Positions 6,743 to 25,522 of a stretch of 27,086 nt of DNA are shown here, piece after piece. Origin of the DNA: a virus; IMG/VR virus record IMGVR_UViG_3300027573_000098, positions 1 through 27,086 of that record; one strand, 5' to 3'. Numbering within the stretch: the first letter of the stretch is position 1; the number at the start of each line of letters is the position of its first letter. The position numbers and the translations under genes are program-made. Under the pieces are notes generated by a model. The model worked only from the letters and a program-made list of their open reading frames with translations. It did no database searches and had not been told where the DNA came from.

Positions 6743-8422
6743 ATGAAAGAAAAAAGCGTTTATGTAACAATTGATAGGGATGTTTATTTACCCTGTTTTC
6801 AGCACCTTTTAGATGAAAATGATATTGATATTGAGTTAATATGGGGAGGACGCGACAGTGGCAAAAGTAAATTTTTGGCCCAGCTGATGGTTGAAAGGGC
6901 CATGAAACCAAATTACTTTAGATGCCTATTGATTAAGGAAACCCACGAAAGTATTAGGGATGCCCAATGGCAAATGATTAAAGACACTGCAGAGCAGTGG
7001 AACGTTGAAAGGTTTTTTAAATTCACCACCGGCCTGTTAGGGATAACCTGTATTGCTGGGGGAACATTCCACCCCAGGGGGATGGATAACCCGGCCAAAA
7101 TTCGTTCATTTACAAACCCCAGTGATGCCTGGGTGGAAGAGGGCAGCCAAATAAGTGAAGAGGCATTTATTACCCTTATTACCGGGTTACGTTCAGATTA
7201 TGGCCCAGTTAAACTATGGATAACATTTAACCCGGAAGCCACCACCCCGGATTATAAAGATTTTTGGATTTATAAAATGTTTTTTGCCAAATACCCTGGC
7301 CAGGTAAATTTTACCGGAACCATTGAGTTAAAAATACCCACCCCAAATGGTGAAAAACTGATAAGGTTAAAATATAGGAGTACCCATGTAACATACCATG
7401 ATAACCCCTATGTGAGCCCCCAGCGTGTGGCATTTCACGAAAGTTTAAAAGATACAAACTTTTACTGGTACCAGGTTTTTACCCTGGGTAAATGGGGTAA
7501 CATTGAAAATGGGAGCCCCTGGGCATACTCATTTAACAGGGCCCGGCACGTTAGCAATGGCGTAACAATACCCCACCCTATTTTAAACAAAAACGAGCCT
7601 GTTTATTTATCATGGGATTTTAACCGAAACCCAATGACCTGCACAGTAATACAACATTACCGGCAAAAGATTAGAGTATTAAGAACCATACGCATACCTA
7701 AAAGCGGGGTTGATGGCATGTGCAAACACATACTGGAATTATACCCAGGGGCCCTGTTTATTGTAACCGGGGATTATAACGGGAATGCAGAAAGCAGCCT
7801 ATTTGCAGAACAGGTTACCCACTACCTTTTAATAAAACAATACCTGGGCCTATCAGATAACCAGCTACAAACAAAACCAAACCCCAGGCAGGCCAAAAAT
7901 TCCACCCACGTTAATACATGCCTGGCCTATTATGACATTGTAATACATGGCATTGATGCTGCAGCCCTGGTTTTTGACCTGGTGAATGTAAAAAGGAGGG
8001 CTGATGGTACCATTTTAAAACTGGATAGGGATGACCCCGCCCAGCAGGCTGATGCATTAGATACGTTAAGGTATTTTTTAAATACGTTTTTAGCCTGGTT
8101 TAAACCCGATGCAGGCAATTTAAAGGGAGTGCAGGTAAATGTATTGCCAGGGCCCGATTGGGAGCCCCTACAGCCCCAATGGCCTGCAGCTGGCAGTATG
8201 CAGCACTATGTACCCGACCCGGAGGGGGCCAATGTTATACATGATGCCATTTATGCCATTAAAAATGGCCACCAGGTATTTTGCAGCAAATACGAATATT
8301 ACGAAATGGTAAGGCCTGCACTTTTAAGCCATGCAGGGGAGTGGGCAGAGGATGGCCTATTAACCCAGGCCAGCCAGGCAGTAACAGAGGTTAAAAGATT
8401 AGACAACCATTTTACCAGCTGA
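6743..8422 (+). CDS. terL: Terminase large subunit, 559 aa
   Basis: This is the motor ATPase and nuclease that packs DNA into the procapsid. The ATPase part shows a Walker A-like GGRDSGKS (residues 35-42), a Walker B-like AWVEE (129-133) and the coupling motif TFNPEA (161-166). The RNase H-like nuclease part shows acidic residues in the expected order, SWDFN (D292), TGDYNG (D344) and ADALDTLRY (D437/D440). About 100 residues follow the last nuclease motif with no recognised domain. The gene ends in TGA and is followed by promoter P4 rather than a portal gene. Confidence 0.95.
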   Translation: MKEKSVYVTIDRDVYLPCFQHLLDENDIDIELIWGGRDSGKSKFLAQLMVERAMKPNYFRCLLIKETHESIRDAQWQMIKDTAEQWNVERFFKFTTGLLGITCIAGGTFHPRGMDNPAKIRSFTNPSDAWVEEGSQISEEAFITLITGLRSDYGPVKLWITFNPEATTPDYKDFWIYKMFFAKYPGQVNFTGTIELKIPTPNGEKLIRLKYRSTHVTYHDNPYVSPQRVAFHESLKDTNFYWYQVFTLGKWGNIENGSPWAYSFNRARHVSNGVTIPHPILNKNEPVYLSWDFNRNPMTCTVIQHYRQKIRVLRTIRIPKSGVDGMCKHILELYPGALFIVTGDYNGNAESSLFAEQVTHYLLIKQYLGLSDNQLQTKPNPRQAKNSTHVNTCLAYYDIVIHGIDAAALVFDLVNVKRRADGTILKLDRDDPAQQADALDTLRYFLNTFLAWFKPDAGNLKGVQVNVLPGPDWEPLQPQWPAAGSMQHYVPDPEGANVIHDAIYAIKNGHQVFCSKYEYYEMVRPALLSHAGEWAEDGLLTQASQAVTEVKRLDNHFTS

Positions 8423-10620: not shown

Positions 10621-11409
10621 ATGAATTTACACGAATACACTTTGATTATTATTAACAGCAGCGCCGGTAAAGATAGCCTGGCCAGTATGTGGGAAATTAA
10701 CAGGATGGCCCAGGAACAAAATTTTCCTGCAGATAAAATTTTTGTGAGCCACCAATGTTTAGGTAAAATGGAATGGCCAGGCACCAGGGAACTGGCAGAA
10801 AGGCAGGCCAGGAAATTTGGATGGGGTTTTGAAGTTTCTAAATACAGGGATGCAGCCGGCCAGGAAATTAGTTTACTGGAATATGCAGAGAAAAGGGGCA
10901 AATGGCCAGCTAAAAAACAAAGGTGGTGTACCAGTGAATTTAAAAGGGGTGCAGGGGCCAGGGTAGTAACCAAATTAACCAAAGGCCTGGGGGATTGTAA
11001 AGTATTGCACGTTTTCGGTTTTAGGGCCCAGGAAAGTGCAGATAGGGCCAAAAAGCAAACCCTGGTTTTAAATACCAGGATAAGCAGCAAAAAAAGAAAG
11101 GTTTATGATTATTTGCCGATACACAATTGGAGCAGTTTTGAAGTTTGGGCCACCATTAAAGGGGCAGGCCTGGAATACCACCCGGCCTATGATTTAGGTA
11201 TGCCCCGGCTAAGTTGCGTATTTTGCATTTTTAGCCCATTTCAGGCCCTGGTAATTGCCGGCAAACATAACCCCCAGCTGTTAGATGAATATGTAAAGGT
11301 GGAGGCCAAAATTGGCCATACGTTTACAGCTGCACACAGCCTGGCAGAAGTAAAAGCAGTGGTGGAAGCCGGGGCCATTGTTGAAAGTGTGGAAGATTGG
11401 GTTATGTAA
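10621..11409 (+). CDS. PAPS-reductase-family (PP-loop) protein, 262 aa
   Basis: The N-terminus carries the PP-loop NSSAGKDS (residues 12-19), which binds the phosphates of ATP or PAPS in adenine nucleotide alpha hydrolases. WCTSEFKR (102-109), GFRAQESADRAK (133-144) and SCVFC (198-202) follow in the order typical of this family; the Cys residues may bind a metal or Fe-S cluster. Phage members are not assimilatory sulfate reductases in any shown way. Relatives include IbrA and DndC-like proteins. It is the largest gene of the accessory block. The substrate is unknown. Confidence 0.85.
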   Translation: MNLHEYTLIIINSSAGKDSLASMWEINRMAQEQNFPADKIFVSHQCLGKMEWPGTRELAERQARKFGWGFEVSKYRDAAGQEISLLEYAEKRGKWPAKKQRWCTSEFKRGAGARVVTKLTKGLGDCKVLHVFGFRAQESADRAKKQTLVLNTRISSKKRKVYDYLPIHNWSSFEVWATIKGAGLEYHPAYDLGMPRLSCVFCIFSPFQALVIAGKHNPQLLDEYVKVEAKIGHTFTAAHSLAEVKAVVEAGAIVESVEDWVM

Positions 11410-16203: not shown

Positions 16204-16415
16204 ACGAACAGGCAAACAGGCTGAGGGCAGCGGGATGGGTTTGCAGCGTTTGTGGGTGCCCAGGTAAAAAAGGTTTTGATTGTTACACTACAAAAAACAG
16301 GTGGGTAAGGATAAGAATAAACCCGGCCAATTTTAGGATAATAAAATTTAATCAGATTATTGAAGCCGGCCATTTATACCAGCTGGAAGAAAAAATGAAA
16401 CTGCATGATATTTAA
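16200..16415 (+). CDS. Small Cys-rich protein, 71 aa
   Basis: Cys residues at 15, 18, 20 and 28 (WVCSVCGC...DC) could bind zinc. The rest is a short beta-rich unit (RWVRIRINPANFRII) ending in a helix YQLEEKMKL. This layout, a Gly/Cys-containing opening, then a basic strand pair and YQLEEKL, recurs in small proteins near tail genes in Bacteroidota phages, from memory. It overlaps both neighbours (ATGA at the start, 11 bases at the end). Confidence 0.72.
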   Translation: MNEQANRLRAAGWVCSVCGCPGKKGFDCYTTKNRWVRIRINPANFRIIKFNQIIEAGHLYQLEEKMKLHDI

Positions 16416-17013
16416 AAAACTGATTAACTGGATATTTAAAAAAAACGTTTTCCCCGTTACCAGCTACGAAACAAAACTGGCCTTTACATGCGGGGGTATT
16501 GATTATTACCAGCTGATTGATTTTAATAACACCCCTGCACTGAGGGGATTAAAAACAATGGTTTTCTATGAGGAAATGAAAATGAAATGCAGCGTAGAAT
16601 ATTTGAAATTGCATGTGGATGCAGTGGATAACATTTTACTGAAACGAAACATAAACATTTTTGAAATTAAAAAGCTAAACGACCAATTAAAGCAGCGGTT
16701 AAACATTGCCCTGGAAATGGAACTGGTTTATAAAATTGCCAGTGTAGTTTTTTTTCCTGCAAATGAAAAAATTGATGATTACGATTATGGTTTTAATGCC
16801 AGGAAGGTGGCCCACTGGAAAAAACATGGCGGGGCAGATTTTTTTTTGCAACGGCCCTTAATAGAGTTACTACCAGTTTTAAGCAATTTGAAAGGGAATT
16901 TAGAGAATTATATTCAGGTACAGGAAAAGCTAAACAAAATACATTTGGAAAATTTATTACGAATGTTGCCGGCCACACAGATACAGAAATTGAGAGGCAA
17001 ATTTACTTTTTAG
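16405..17013 (+). CDS. Tail assembly chaperone, short form (202 aa)
   Basis: The gene lies directly upstream of the tape measure gene, where G/GT-type tail chaperones are found. The zero-frame product of 202 residues is mostly helical, and its last 18 residues come after a slippery site at 16950-16956. Frame -1 is open and protein-like beyond the site and ends at 17168, inside the tape measure gene. This short/long arrangement is the hallmark of lambda-type tail chaperones. Sequence similarity to a named chaperone family was not recognised; the call rests on position and the frameshift. Confidence 0.75.
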   Translation: MIFKKLINWIFKKNVFPVTSYETKLAFTCGGIDYYQLIDFNNTPALRGLKTMVFYEEMKMKCSVEYLKLHVDAVDNILLKRNINIFEIKKLNDQLKQRLNIALEMELVYKIASVVFFPANEKIDDYDYGFNARKVAHWKKHGGADFFLQRPLIELLPVLSNLKGNLENYIQVQEKLNKIHLENLLRMLPATQIQKLRGKFTF

Positions 17014-17168
17014 CAGGTAACGACCCTGCAAAATTAGAGGCCATACGAGGCCTAACAATTTGGAGGTATTTATTTTTTTTAAACGAAAAAATGAGAACCC
17101 CCGCCCCCCGCCAGTTAAAACCCGTTACGGGAAATGATACAAAACATTTTAGTGCAGATGGGCATTGA
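16405..17168 (+). CDS. Tail assembly chaperone, predicted -1 frameshift product (254 aa)
   Basis: Reading 184 codons in frame 0 through 16956, then slipping back one base, gives 70 more codons starting at 16956 and ending at TGA 17166-17168. The added part begins ITNVAGHTDTEIERQIYFLA and continues GNDPAKLEAIRGLTIWRYLF. It is ordinary, well-composed protein sequence that no annotated frame would explain. The long form would be the minor species that links chaperone to tape measure protein. It overlaps the tape measure start by 35 bases. Confidence 0.7.
16950..16956 (+). promoter_or_regulatory. Slippery heptamer A_AAT_TTA for -1 frameshifting
   Basis: The zero-frame codons are GAA AAT TTA. The heptamer A-AAT-TTA follows the X_XXY_YYZ rule, so Asn and Leu tRNAs can re-pair on AAA and TTT one base back. 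The same heptamer is used by Rous sarcoma virus. It is the only good heptamer I found in the stretch where both frames are open. No clear stimulatory stem is visible downstream apart from the GCCGGC palindrome near 16968. Confidence 0.7.
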
Positions 17169-23074: not shown

Positions 23075-24785
23075 TTTTTCATCTACAGAGCCCCCAAATA
23101 ATACACCGTTACCAGTGGCCACCCCCACTGATATTGCATTTCAGATTTTATTAACAGCGGAAAGCGAAGCGGAGGCCGACAGCATAGGCACCGGGGCCAT
23201 TATACTTTATGTAATGAGCCAGGATGGCACCACCCAGCTGCATGATTACCATTTGGATGGTTATTTATTCCAACAATACAGAACTGGCCCCCATACTGTT
23301 TTAATTTTTTGGCCACATGGTTTACCAAATATTGCCAGTTATGTGGACGCAAACACCTGTTTTAGATTGGCCATTGAAATTGTGCCCGATGTTGTTACAC
23401 ATTACATGGCAGCCGGCCCGGTTTTAAAACTGATTACTGAGCCAAAATATACCAGCGTTTTAGAGTATTCATGTGAGGAAAACAGTTATGGGTTTACCTA
23501 TTGTTACGCATACACCCCCAACAGGGTAAGGTTACCCCTGTATTTGTACCGGCCCCAGTTTAATGATGAAGAAAGTATTTACACCAGGCATGATGGGAGT
23601 TTATTTATTACAAAATCAGTAACAAAAAAGGAATACCTGGGAACAGTTGATTATATTAATGAAGCATACCACGAAAAAATTAAAATAGCCCTTTCGCATG
23701 ACACCGTTTTAATTTATAGTGATGTTTATAACGGGGGCCTGAGAAAAAACGGAGGGTATGAGATAGAATGGCAGGAATTACCAGGTTACAGTACGGAAGC
23801 CCCGGCAAAATTTAAAGGGTTTGCCACACCTTACCTGGTACGAAATGACAATTGTGCAGTATGCAATAATTTTTGTTATCCACCAGTAGGGGTTACCAGT
23901 ACCCCGGTTTTACCTGATGCAGTTATAGGGGTGGCCTATTCATTTTCATTTACCGTTAATGGTATGGCCCCATTTGTTTTAAATGTGGGGGCCCGGCCCA
24001 GCTGGATGGAAATAACAATGGTGGGGGATGAAATATTTTTTGCCGGCACCCCTGATGAGGAAATAGCTGAGGCCCCGGTTAGTTTAACCGTTTTTAATTG
24101 TGAACTGGTAAATTTTTATGATTTTTCAGATTCCATTGACGTTTTAGCAGAGGGCACATGCATAGGGGTGGCAGTTATAACCCCGCCCCCTATGCCTAAC
24201 GCAGTAGTGGGTACCGGTTACTTTTTTATGTTTCCGTTTACTGGCACCCCGCCAATGGCCCTGGGCAGCATAGTAAAACCAGCCTGGATGAACATAAACA
24301 TTTCAGGTAGTACGGTTGAATTTACCGGAATACCTGATGTAGCCGGCACCGGGTTAAATGTGCAGGTACAGGTAACAAATTGTGATGATGATTTTTATGA
24401 TTTTGCTGATACAATGGATGTGGCAGAGGCACCACCACCACCGGAGGATATTATTTTAACCATTACAGCCCTGTATTTTGATACCAGTTTTAGTGCCAGT
24501 TTAAATTTTGCAATTAGCGAAACGCTAACCATTGCCAATACTTTTTCAGATAGCTTTAATACATGCGGGGCCAGTGCAGTGGGTAGTATGCAACATGTAC
24601 CAGGCGCGATTTTAACTGCAGGTATGACCGGCATAACATACGACAGCCTGAGCAATACCGGAACCCAAACCCCACACAATACAGTTTTAAACCCGGTAAA
24701 CGTCAATGGTACCCCGTACAGTCATAATGATGTAATGACCATTGGGGCCTATTCAATCATTTTACATTTACAACAATGTTCGTAA
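23037..24785 (+). CDS. Tail-tip/fibre protein with two Ig-like repeats, 582 aa
   Basis: The first 280 residues are a tail-type domain ending in a Cys pair region (NDNCAVCNNFCYPP). Two repeats of about 85-95 residues follow: LPDAVIGVAYSFSFTVNG...RPSWMEI...GTPDE and MPNAVVGTGYFFMFPFTGT...KPAWMNI...GIPDVAG. They match the Ig-like pattern LPxAxxGxxYxFxFxxxG...W...GxP of He_PIG-type domains. The end is Ser/Thr/Ala-rich and ends in Cys. This domain set fits host-surface recognition. It overlaps the previous gene by 38 bases. Confidence 0.72.
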   Translation: MITATTARANFFNFSSTEPPNNTPLPVATPTDIAFQILLTAESEAEADSIGTGAIILYVMSQDGTTQLHDYHLDGYLFQQYRTGPHTVLIFWPHGLPNIASYVDANTCFRLAIEIVPDVVTHYMAAGPVLKLITEPKYTSVLEYSCEENSYGFTYCYAYTPNRVRLPLYLYRPQFNDEESIYTRHDGSLFITKSVTKKEYLGTVDYINEAYHEKIKIALSHDTVLIYSDVYNGGLRKNGGYEIEWQELPGYSTEAPAKFKGFATPYLVRNDNCAVCNNFCYPPVGVTSTPVLPDAVIGVAYSFSFTVNGMAPFVLNVGARPSWMEITMVGDEIFFAGTPDEEIAEAPVSLTVFNCELVNFYDFSDSIDVLAEGTCIGVAVITPPPMPNAVVGTGYFFMFPFTGTPPMALGSIVKPAWMNINISGSTVEFTGIPDVAGTGLNVQVQVTNCDDDFYDFADTMDVAEAPPPPEDIILTITALYFDTSFSASLNFAISETLTIANTFSDSFNTCGASAVGSMQHVPGAILTAGMTGITYDSLSNTGTQTPHNTVLNPVNVNGTPYSHNDVMTIGAYSIILHLQQCS

Positions 24786-24787
24786 AC

Positions 24788-25522
24788 ATGAAAGGTATTA
24801 AAAATAAATTTTGCACCTACATGCATATAAACCCAGTTAAAAATGAAGTTTTTTATATTGGTATTGGAACAATAAACAGGCCATACCAAATAATAAGACG
24901 TTCACTTTTTTGGAATAACACAGCTAAAAAATATGGTTTTAAAGTGCAGATTTTACATGAAGGGCAAACATGGGAACAGGCCAGCGAAAAAGAAAGGGAA
25001 TATATTAAAAAGTATGGCAGGCAGGATAAAGGAACCGGCACCCTGGTTAACATGACTGATGGCGGGGATGGTACCAGGGGTTATGCAGGATTTTGGAAGG
25101 GGAAAAAGCGGGGGGCACCAACAGAGGAAACCAGGCAAAAAAATATTTTAAATAGTTCAAAACATTTTACTGGTAAAACCCACACAGAGGAAACAAAACA
25201 AAAAATTAGGGAAAAAAGAAAATTGCAGATACACCCAATGTTAGGAAAAAAATTTACAGAGGAAAGAAAAAAACAAATGAGTGAAACGGCTAAAAAAATA
25301 TGGCAGGATAAAATACACCCCAGGCCCATGCTGGGTAAAAAATTTACAGAGGAACAAAAACAAAAACATTCAAATGCATTAAAAAAATGGCATAGTGAAA
25401 ACCCAATGAGTGAAGAAACAAAACAAAAAATCGGTTTAGGAAATAAAGGCAAAATTATAACAGCCGAAATGAGGGAAAAAATAAGTAAAACTTTAACTGG
25501 TAAAAAATATAAAAATGGATAA
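24788..25522 (+). CDS. GIY-YIG endonuclease with NUMOD3-like repeats, 244 aa
   Basis: The N-terminal domain reads CTYMHINPVKNEVFYIGIG (residues 9-27), the GIY-YIG signature region, with R31, E71 in SEKEREYIKKYG and N88 in LVNMTDGG as active-site candidates. At least five short repeats follow, such as GKTHTEETKQKI, GKKFTEERKKQM, GKKFTEEQKQKH and MSEETKQKI. These match NUMOD3 DNA-binding helices of homing endonucleases. ATG 24788 is two bases after the previous stop; ATG 24776 is an alternative. No intron is seen around it, so it is probably free-standing. Confidence 0.85.
   Translation: MKGIKNKFCTYMHINPVKNEVFYIGIGTINRPYQIIRRSLFWNNTAKKYGFKVQILHEGQTWEQASEKEREYIKKYGRQDKGTGTLVNMTDGGDGTRGYAGFWKGKKRGAPTEETRQKNILNSSKHFTGKTHTEETKQKIREKRKLQIHPMLGKKFTEERKKQMSETAKKIWQDKIHPRPMLGKKFTEEQKQKHSNALKKWHSENPMSEETKQKIGLGNKGKIITAEMREKISKTLTGKKYKNG

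Follow-up and report, generated by a model that had tools for sequence, protein, structure and literature searches.

The gene at 16405–17013 of the window (the whole 27,086-nt stretch of IMG/VR virus record IMGVR_UViG_3300027573_000098 analyzed here) very probably encodes a G/GT-type tail assembly chaperone that would be made in two forms, of 202 and 254 amino acids, by a −1 slip on a run of U residues (Table 1). Most ribosomes would stay in frame 0 and produce the 202-aa protein. Some would slip back by one nucleotide on the U-run as the tRNA-Phe molecules of the P and A sites re-pair with U_UUU_UUU (16839–16845) or, alternatively, one codon later with U_UUU_UUG. After the slip, the −1 frame would be read to 17165, giving a 254-aa protein with a different, longer C-terminal domain. 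The final ~55 codons for the short protein would then also serve, in the other frame, for the first half of the C-terminal domain of the long one. Both the ribosomal nature of the slippage and its frequency are inferred here.

Table 1. Coordinates of the chaperone gene, its candidate slip sites and the following gene in the window.
Feature	Coordinates	Strand	Remarks
0-frame ORF, short product (gpG-like), 202 aa	16405–17013	+	Stop codon 17011–17013; 60-member family alignment; AlphaFold2 pLDDT 84
T9 run, slip site region	16839–16847	+	Frame 0 reads GCA GAT TTT TTT TTG
Heptamer T_TTT_TTT, likeliest slip site	16839–16845	+	Sole heptamer common to T6C, T7 and T8 relatives
Heptamer T_TTT_TTG, overlapping, possible additional slip site	16842–16848	+	Missing from T6C, T7 and T8 relatives
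−1 frame extension; predicted long fusion product (gpGT-like), total 254 aa	16845–17168	+	64-member alignment; AlphaFold2 mean pLDDT 69
Dual-coded overlap, both frames read	16849–17010	+	Suppressed change at third positions and synonymous sites (p~5e-24; 15/16 pairs)
A_AAT_TTA, heptamer of the original prediction	16950–16956	+	Present, not conserved; probably not the slip site
Tape measure protein, 912 aa	17134–19872	+	PHROG tape measure matches, E 5.7e-14 and 2.3e-13

The reading frames described in the original prediction were recovered from the sequence: a zero-frame ORF that stops at 17013, a −1 frame that stays open to its stop codon at 17166–17168, and a tape measure ORF whose start lies 34 nt before the end of that stop codon, giving the expected overlap of 35 bases. 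The heptamer A_AAT_TTA is likewise present in the right phase (GAA AAT TTA). Missed at that stage were the opening of the −1 frame at 16797, upstream of both the T9 run and A_AAT_TTA, and the T9 run itself with its own in-phase heptamers. The 0 and −1 frames share 217 nt in the window. The two products would have ~147 N-terminal residues in common and would differ in their C-terminal regions, which comprise ~55 residues in the short form and ~107 in the long form.

Direct tblastn searches with the 0-frame and −1 proteins against 50,697 phage records gave no match, initial protein-based scans of viral contigs returned only contigs identical to the window, and a first scan of genome contigs found no relative. 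A hand-made degenerate DNA pattern for the 0-frame protein motif FYxE[ML]xM.C yielded two divergent relatives, and alignments built from these enlarged the set stepwise to 8, 22 and finally 80 viral loci plus one contig titled Bacteroidota bacterium (L039). One alignment, A7, which combined the natural fusion at L074 with fragments, was misaligned and was set aside. Removal of duplicates left 71 distinct overlap sequences, the window and 70 relatives, with 0-frame identity to the window ranging from about 71% down to 31%. When 395 genomes were searched at the level of the phylum, the genome containing L039 was the sole match. A search of 395 genomes from the class of that genome revealed homologs (E 1e-12 to 1e-42) in six, of which five were new. 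Seven loci from the five new bacterial genomes served as a held-out test set, which was read after the pattern had been fixed. The L039 contig and the six genomes of its class support the earlier view that this is a Bacteroidota-type phage, the host assignment being taken from MAG and genome records.

Alignment of these relatives reveals a slip site that is never lost. An in-phase T_TTT_TTY follows a conserved W-K...F-F motif in 71/71 distinct loci, at homologous codons in 66 and one codon later in the remaining five, and this heptamer allows re-pairing of both tRNAs in all of them. Since T_TTT_TTR is missing from the loci with T6C, T7 or T8, T_TTT_TTT is the likelier of the two overlapping candidates in the window. 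Beyond the slip site, the −1 frame is open for 88–115 codons (median 99) in every locus. The 0 frame ends after 41–74 codons (median 57; 55 in the window), and the +1 frame closes after 2–28 codons (median 9). Given the 0-frame protein and the codon usage of each locus, the probability of a stop-free −1 overlap arising by chance is 0.06 for the window and has a median of 0.0065 over the 71 loci. The log10 values sum to about −164, a total that is uncorrected for relatedness and overstates independence because the loci belong to one family. The openness of the −1 frame is thus more than chance. No ATG occurs in the −1 frame within the overlap at any of the 71 loci (ATG alone was counted, not GTG or TTG), so no ATG is available there for separate initiation.

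The held-out homologs follow the same pattern. T_TTT_TTY is found at the homologous place in 7/7, GC-rich loci included, and a long 0 frame is combined with a long −1 frame in 6/7; the exception, L150, has just 20 further 0-frame codons. The +1 frame is also long in L146 and L150, and the frame control is therefore less informative at these two loci. A genome that contributes to this set, G550, contains a tandem of chaperone homologs (L151 and L153; contig C78, about 7007–8116), in which a 200-aa copy with T9 precedes a 199-aa diverged copy that lacks the FFL site. The same genome carries two further copies, L146 and L152.

The original prediction had placed a programmed −1 frameshift ahead of the tape measure gene, with A_AAT_TTA as the slip site. 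Comparison with relatives upholds the gene and the −1 shift and places the site 111 nt further upstream, in the U-run: relatives conserve the −1 frame, and the U-run is kept throughout the family and the held-out set. Slippage at A_AAT_TTA would be compatible with the window taken by itself, where the −1 frame continues beyond the in-phase heptamer, but the heptamer is missing at that position in all 70 other distinct loci. An in-phase AAATTTA does occur in 7/71 overlaps, the window included, each time at a different, non-homologous place, and its occurrence in the overlaps is no more than background. Moreover, the −1 product can be aligned in full, starting at the U-run. Its segment encoded between the U-run and A_AAT_TTA is conserved as protein and would go untranslated if ribosomes slipped at A_AAT_TTA; the third-position constraint described below also spans the whole overlap. 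We therefore regard ribosomal slippage at this heptamer as highly improbable. Because A_AAT_TTA fails the conservation comparison and the U-run passes it, the Asn-Leu-Ile-Thr-Asn junction peptide proposed earlier is probably wrong. The long-form junction expected from the U-run is HGGADFF(F or L)ATALNR, with HGGADFFFATALNR or HGGADFFLATALNR as the predicted junction peptides, one for each candidate heptamer, and HGGADFFLQR as the short-form counterpart.

We also examined substitution rates in 16 pairs of loci, each locus being used once, with the qualification that the pairs may have common ancestry. Upstream of the slip site, the rates at codon positions 1, 2 and 3 are 0.164, 0.095 and 0.428. 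Within the overlap, read in the 0 phase, they are 0.139, 0.162 and 0.233, with the second position raised and the third lowered. The part read only in the −1 frame returns to a normal pattern in the −1 phase (0.186, 0.129 and 0.385). Third-position suppression in the overlap was found in 15/16 pairs (Fisher p~5e-24). Codons for conserved residues tell the same story, with synonymous changes in 661 of 1689 upstream versus 110 of 626 in the overlap (p~4e-24). For the nearest relatives of the window, the third-position rate falls from 0.52 to 0.31 (L097) and from 0.63 to 0.37 (L103). In AlphaFold2 models, the 0-frame product is predicted with pLDDT 74–90 through its dual-coded end, save for the last few residues. 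The −1 domain is modeled as helices at lower confidence, with values of 80–88 in the main helices. Given the constraint on the overlap, the stop-free −1 frame and these predicted folds, both protein ends appear to be real and under selection.

Two other explanations for the U-run have to be weighed against ribosomal slippage. Both frames are conserved in nine distinct loci with T6C and in two with T7, and RNA polymerase is not known to slip appreciably on runs as short as these. Run length varies across the family (three loci have T8), and the in-phase T_TTT_TTY is kept throughout. The constant heptamer in the T6C, T7 and T8 loci therefore favors tandem tRNA-Phe slippage over an RNA polymerase that stutters on T9 and adds one U, so that the long product would be read straight from the altered transcript. 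We consider such transcriptional slippage unlikely, even though T9, present in 56/71 distinct loci, is long enough for it, and L074, where a T10 places the long product in frame and leaves the short-product frame intact, fits a mechanism that depends on run length. The T9 run itself would be forced anyway by the two proteins if FFL and FFF are both to be kept. An indel error of sequencing or assembly in the U-run, hiding a gene that is truly one uninterrupted frame, is extremely improbable. Homopolymers are error-prone, and the T10 of L074 reads through as one frame, but loci at 31–71% identity agree in phase, and the overlap is constrained in both frames, which would not be expected of a single-frame gene. 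In addition, two further contigs match the window at 100% over the regions retrieved, making three identical contigs in all, and an assembly error in T9 is therefore unlikely.

L074 (4001–4705 of IMGVR_UViG_2881677958_000001, a prophage record) is an observation of its own: a single frame encodes the long form, and the short form is found intact in +1, an arrangement opposite to that at every other locus. A sequencing error, a recent mutation or slippage dependent on run length would each fit its T10.

Slippage by ribosomes on the U-run accords with the position of the gene. It lies directly upstream of the tape measure gene in the window and in 68/68 loci with enough sequence, where the −1 stop is accompanied, at −61 to +111 nt, by the start of an ORF of tape measure size; 52 of these 68 ORFs are detectably similar to the tape measure of the window. 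Also as expected of a tail chaperone gene, a conserved in-phase slippery site is followed by a shifted frame that is open and joined to the first ORF in 71/71 loci. Most likely, the short product is the G form and the long one the GT form. In lambda, the tape measure is bound by gpG as well as by frameshifted gpGT, whose T part brings in the tail tube protein (PMC5009743); by analogy, we infer chaperone roles for both products of the window. The chaperone family has no convincing match in PHROGs or Pfam, nor among solved structures (Foldseek against the PDB). A Foldseek search of BFVD gave no match at E<=0.001, with several TACs found just among the weak viral matches. These results point to an undescribed chaperone family of Bacteroidota phages that is absent from PHROGs and Pfam. 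Recognizable genes upstream of the chaperone gene in relatives encode terminase subunits and endolysin, and no tail tube gene was recognized there. In L064, L103 and L110, the terminase subunits lie a few small genes upstream of the chaperone gene, so the tail module here follows the terminase and not a head module.

Profile comparisons were extended to the single-frame genes that precede the tape measure in LS06, Tenacibaculum JQ and Alistipes AS73P1. The best result was a weak similarity between the C-terminus of the 256-aa AS73P1 gene product and the −1 domain (hhalign E 0.012), and we do not claim these genes as in-frame fusions of the chaperone family. The tape measure match that follows the AS73P1 gene, at the end of the record (L012, 4300–6694 of OP172640), falls where no gene is annotated.

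Several known systems resemble the arrangement proposed here. Phage SPP1 encodes gp17.5 (173 aa) and gp17.5* (297 aa), which share their first 112 residues and are attributed to a slip on UUUUUUC (PMC6316719). As in the window, the gene precedes that for the tape measure and contains a U heptamer, UUUUUUC corresponding to the T6C class of relatives, and its overlap of ~61 codons falls within the 41–74 codons of the present family. SPP1 infects Bacillus, and its putative frameshift was predicted by bioinformatics. Lambda gpG/gpGT also lies directly before the tape measure gene, uses a −1 heptamer slip and makes a long product that has no start of its own. However, lambda slips on GGGAAAG, and only 6 codons of G, counting the stop, remain after the slip, compared with ~55 in the window. 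Thus, gpGT is an extension of gpG, whereas the predicted products of the window differ at their C-termini. P2 E/E+E' likewise combines a gene before the tape measure with a −1 frameshift, annotated 20 nt ahead of the last base of the E stop codon as opposed to about 165 nt in the window. The P2 site is T_TTT_TTG as well. In phage chaperone genes, the distance from slip to 0-frame stop averages 26–36 nt, and the published predictor PRFect found a distance above 51 nt in just two of 43 viral genomes (PMC10885494). The geometry of the window is therefore unusual and, given the U heptamer and long overlap of SPP1 17.5, its closest precedent, not unprecedented.

Phages of Bacteroidota hosts can also be arranged differently. 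In a Porphyromonas phage (L011) and an uncultured gut phage (L014), the 0 and −1 frames before the tape measure are both protein-like, and a slip-like A_AAG_GGG is located shortly before the 0 frame ends, unlike the U-run of the window, which is far upstream of the stop. The −1 extension after this heptamer (L011, 3975–4600 of PP754930, and L014) is unannotated, with the 0 frame ending ...HEAKGS* and the −1 frame reading ...SSHSPFGVVWQIATATGWSVHYI..., an apparent classical tail chaperone frameshift.

In a search for pseudoknot-free RNA structures, folding downstream of the U-run was no stronger than at control positions (mean z −0.2 to −0.3), and no stimulatory structure emerged. Such structures accompany many, but not all, −1 slip sites. 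We tentatively suggest, as a possibility that we hold with some doubt, that the frameshift exchanges two separately folded, selected C-terminal regions encoded by the same DNA and does so without a stimulatory structure. The C-terminal region of the short isoform (41–74 residues) would then have a job in tail assembly that is absent from the lambda model.

Replacement of A_AAT_TTA by the U-run corrects the slip site of this gene. With ~55 codons that appear to be selected in two frames across dozens of divergent lineages, the overlap would rank among the clearer natural cases of dual coding in phages. Since the overlap contains no ATG in the −1 frame, the −1 half will escape gene callers. The natural series of T6C, T7, T8, T9 and T10 runs is well suited to testing ribosomal against transcriptional slippage on U-runs.

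Two other ORFs of the window stood out by eye. A 262-aa ORF at 10621–11409 has the look of a phosphoadenosine phosphosulfate reductase-type protein, with an INSSAGKDS motif. Among the structural genes, a 248-aa ORF at 24776–25522 resembles a GIY-YIG homing endonuclease and contains repeated ETKQKI-type motifs.
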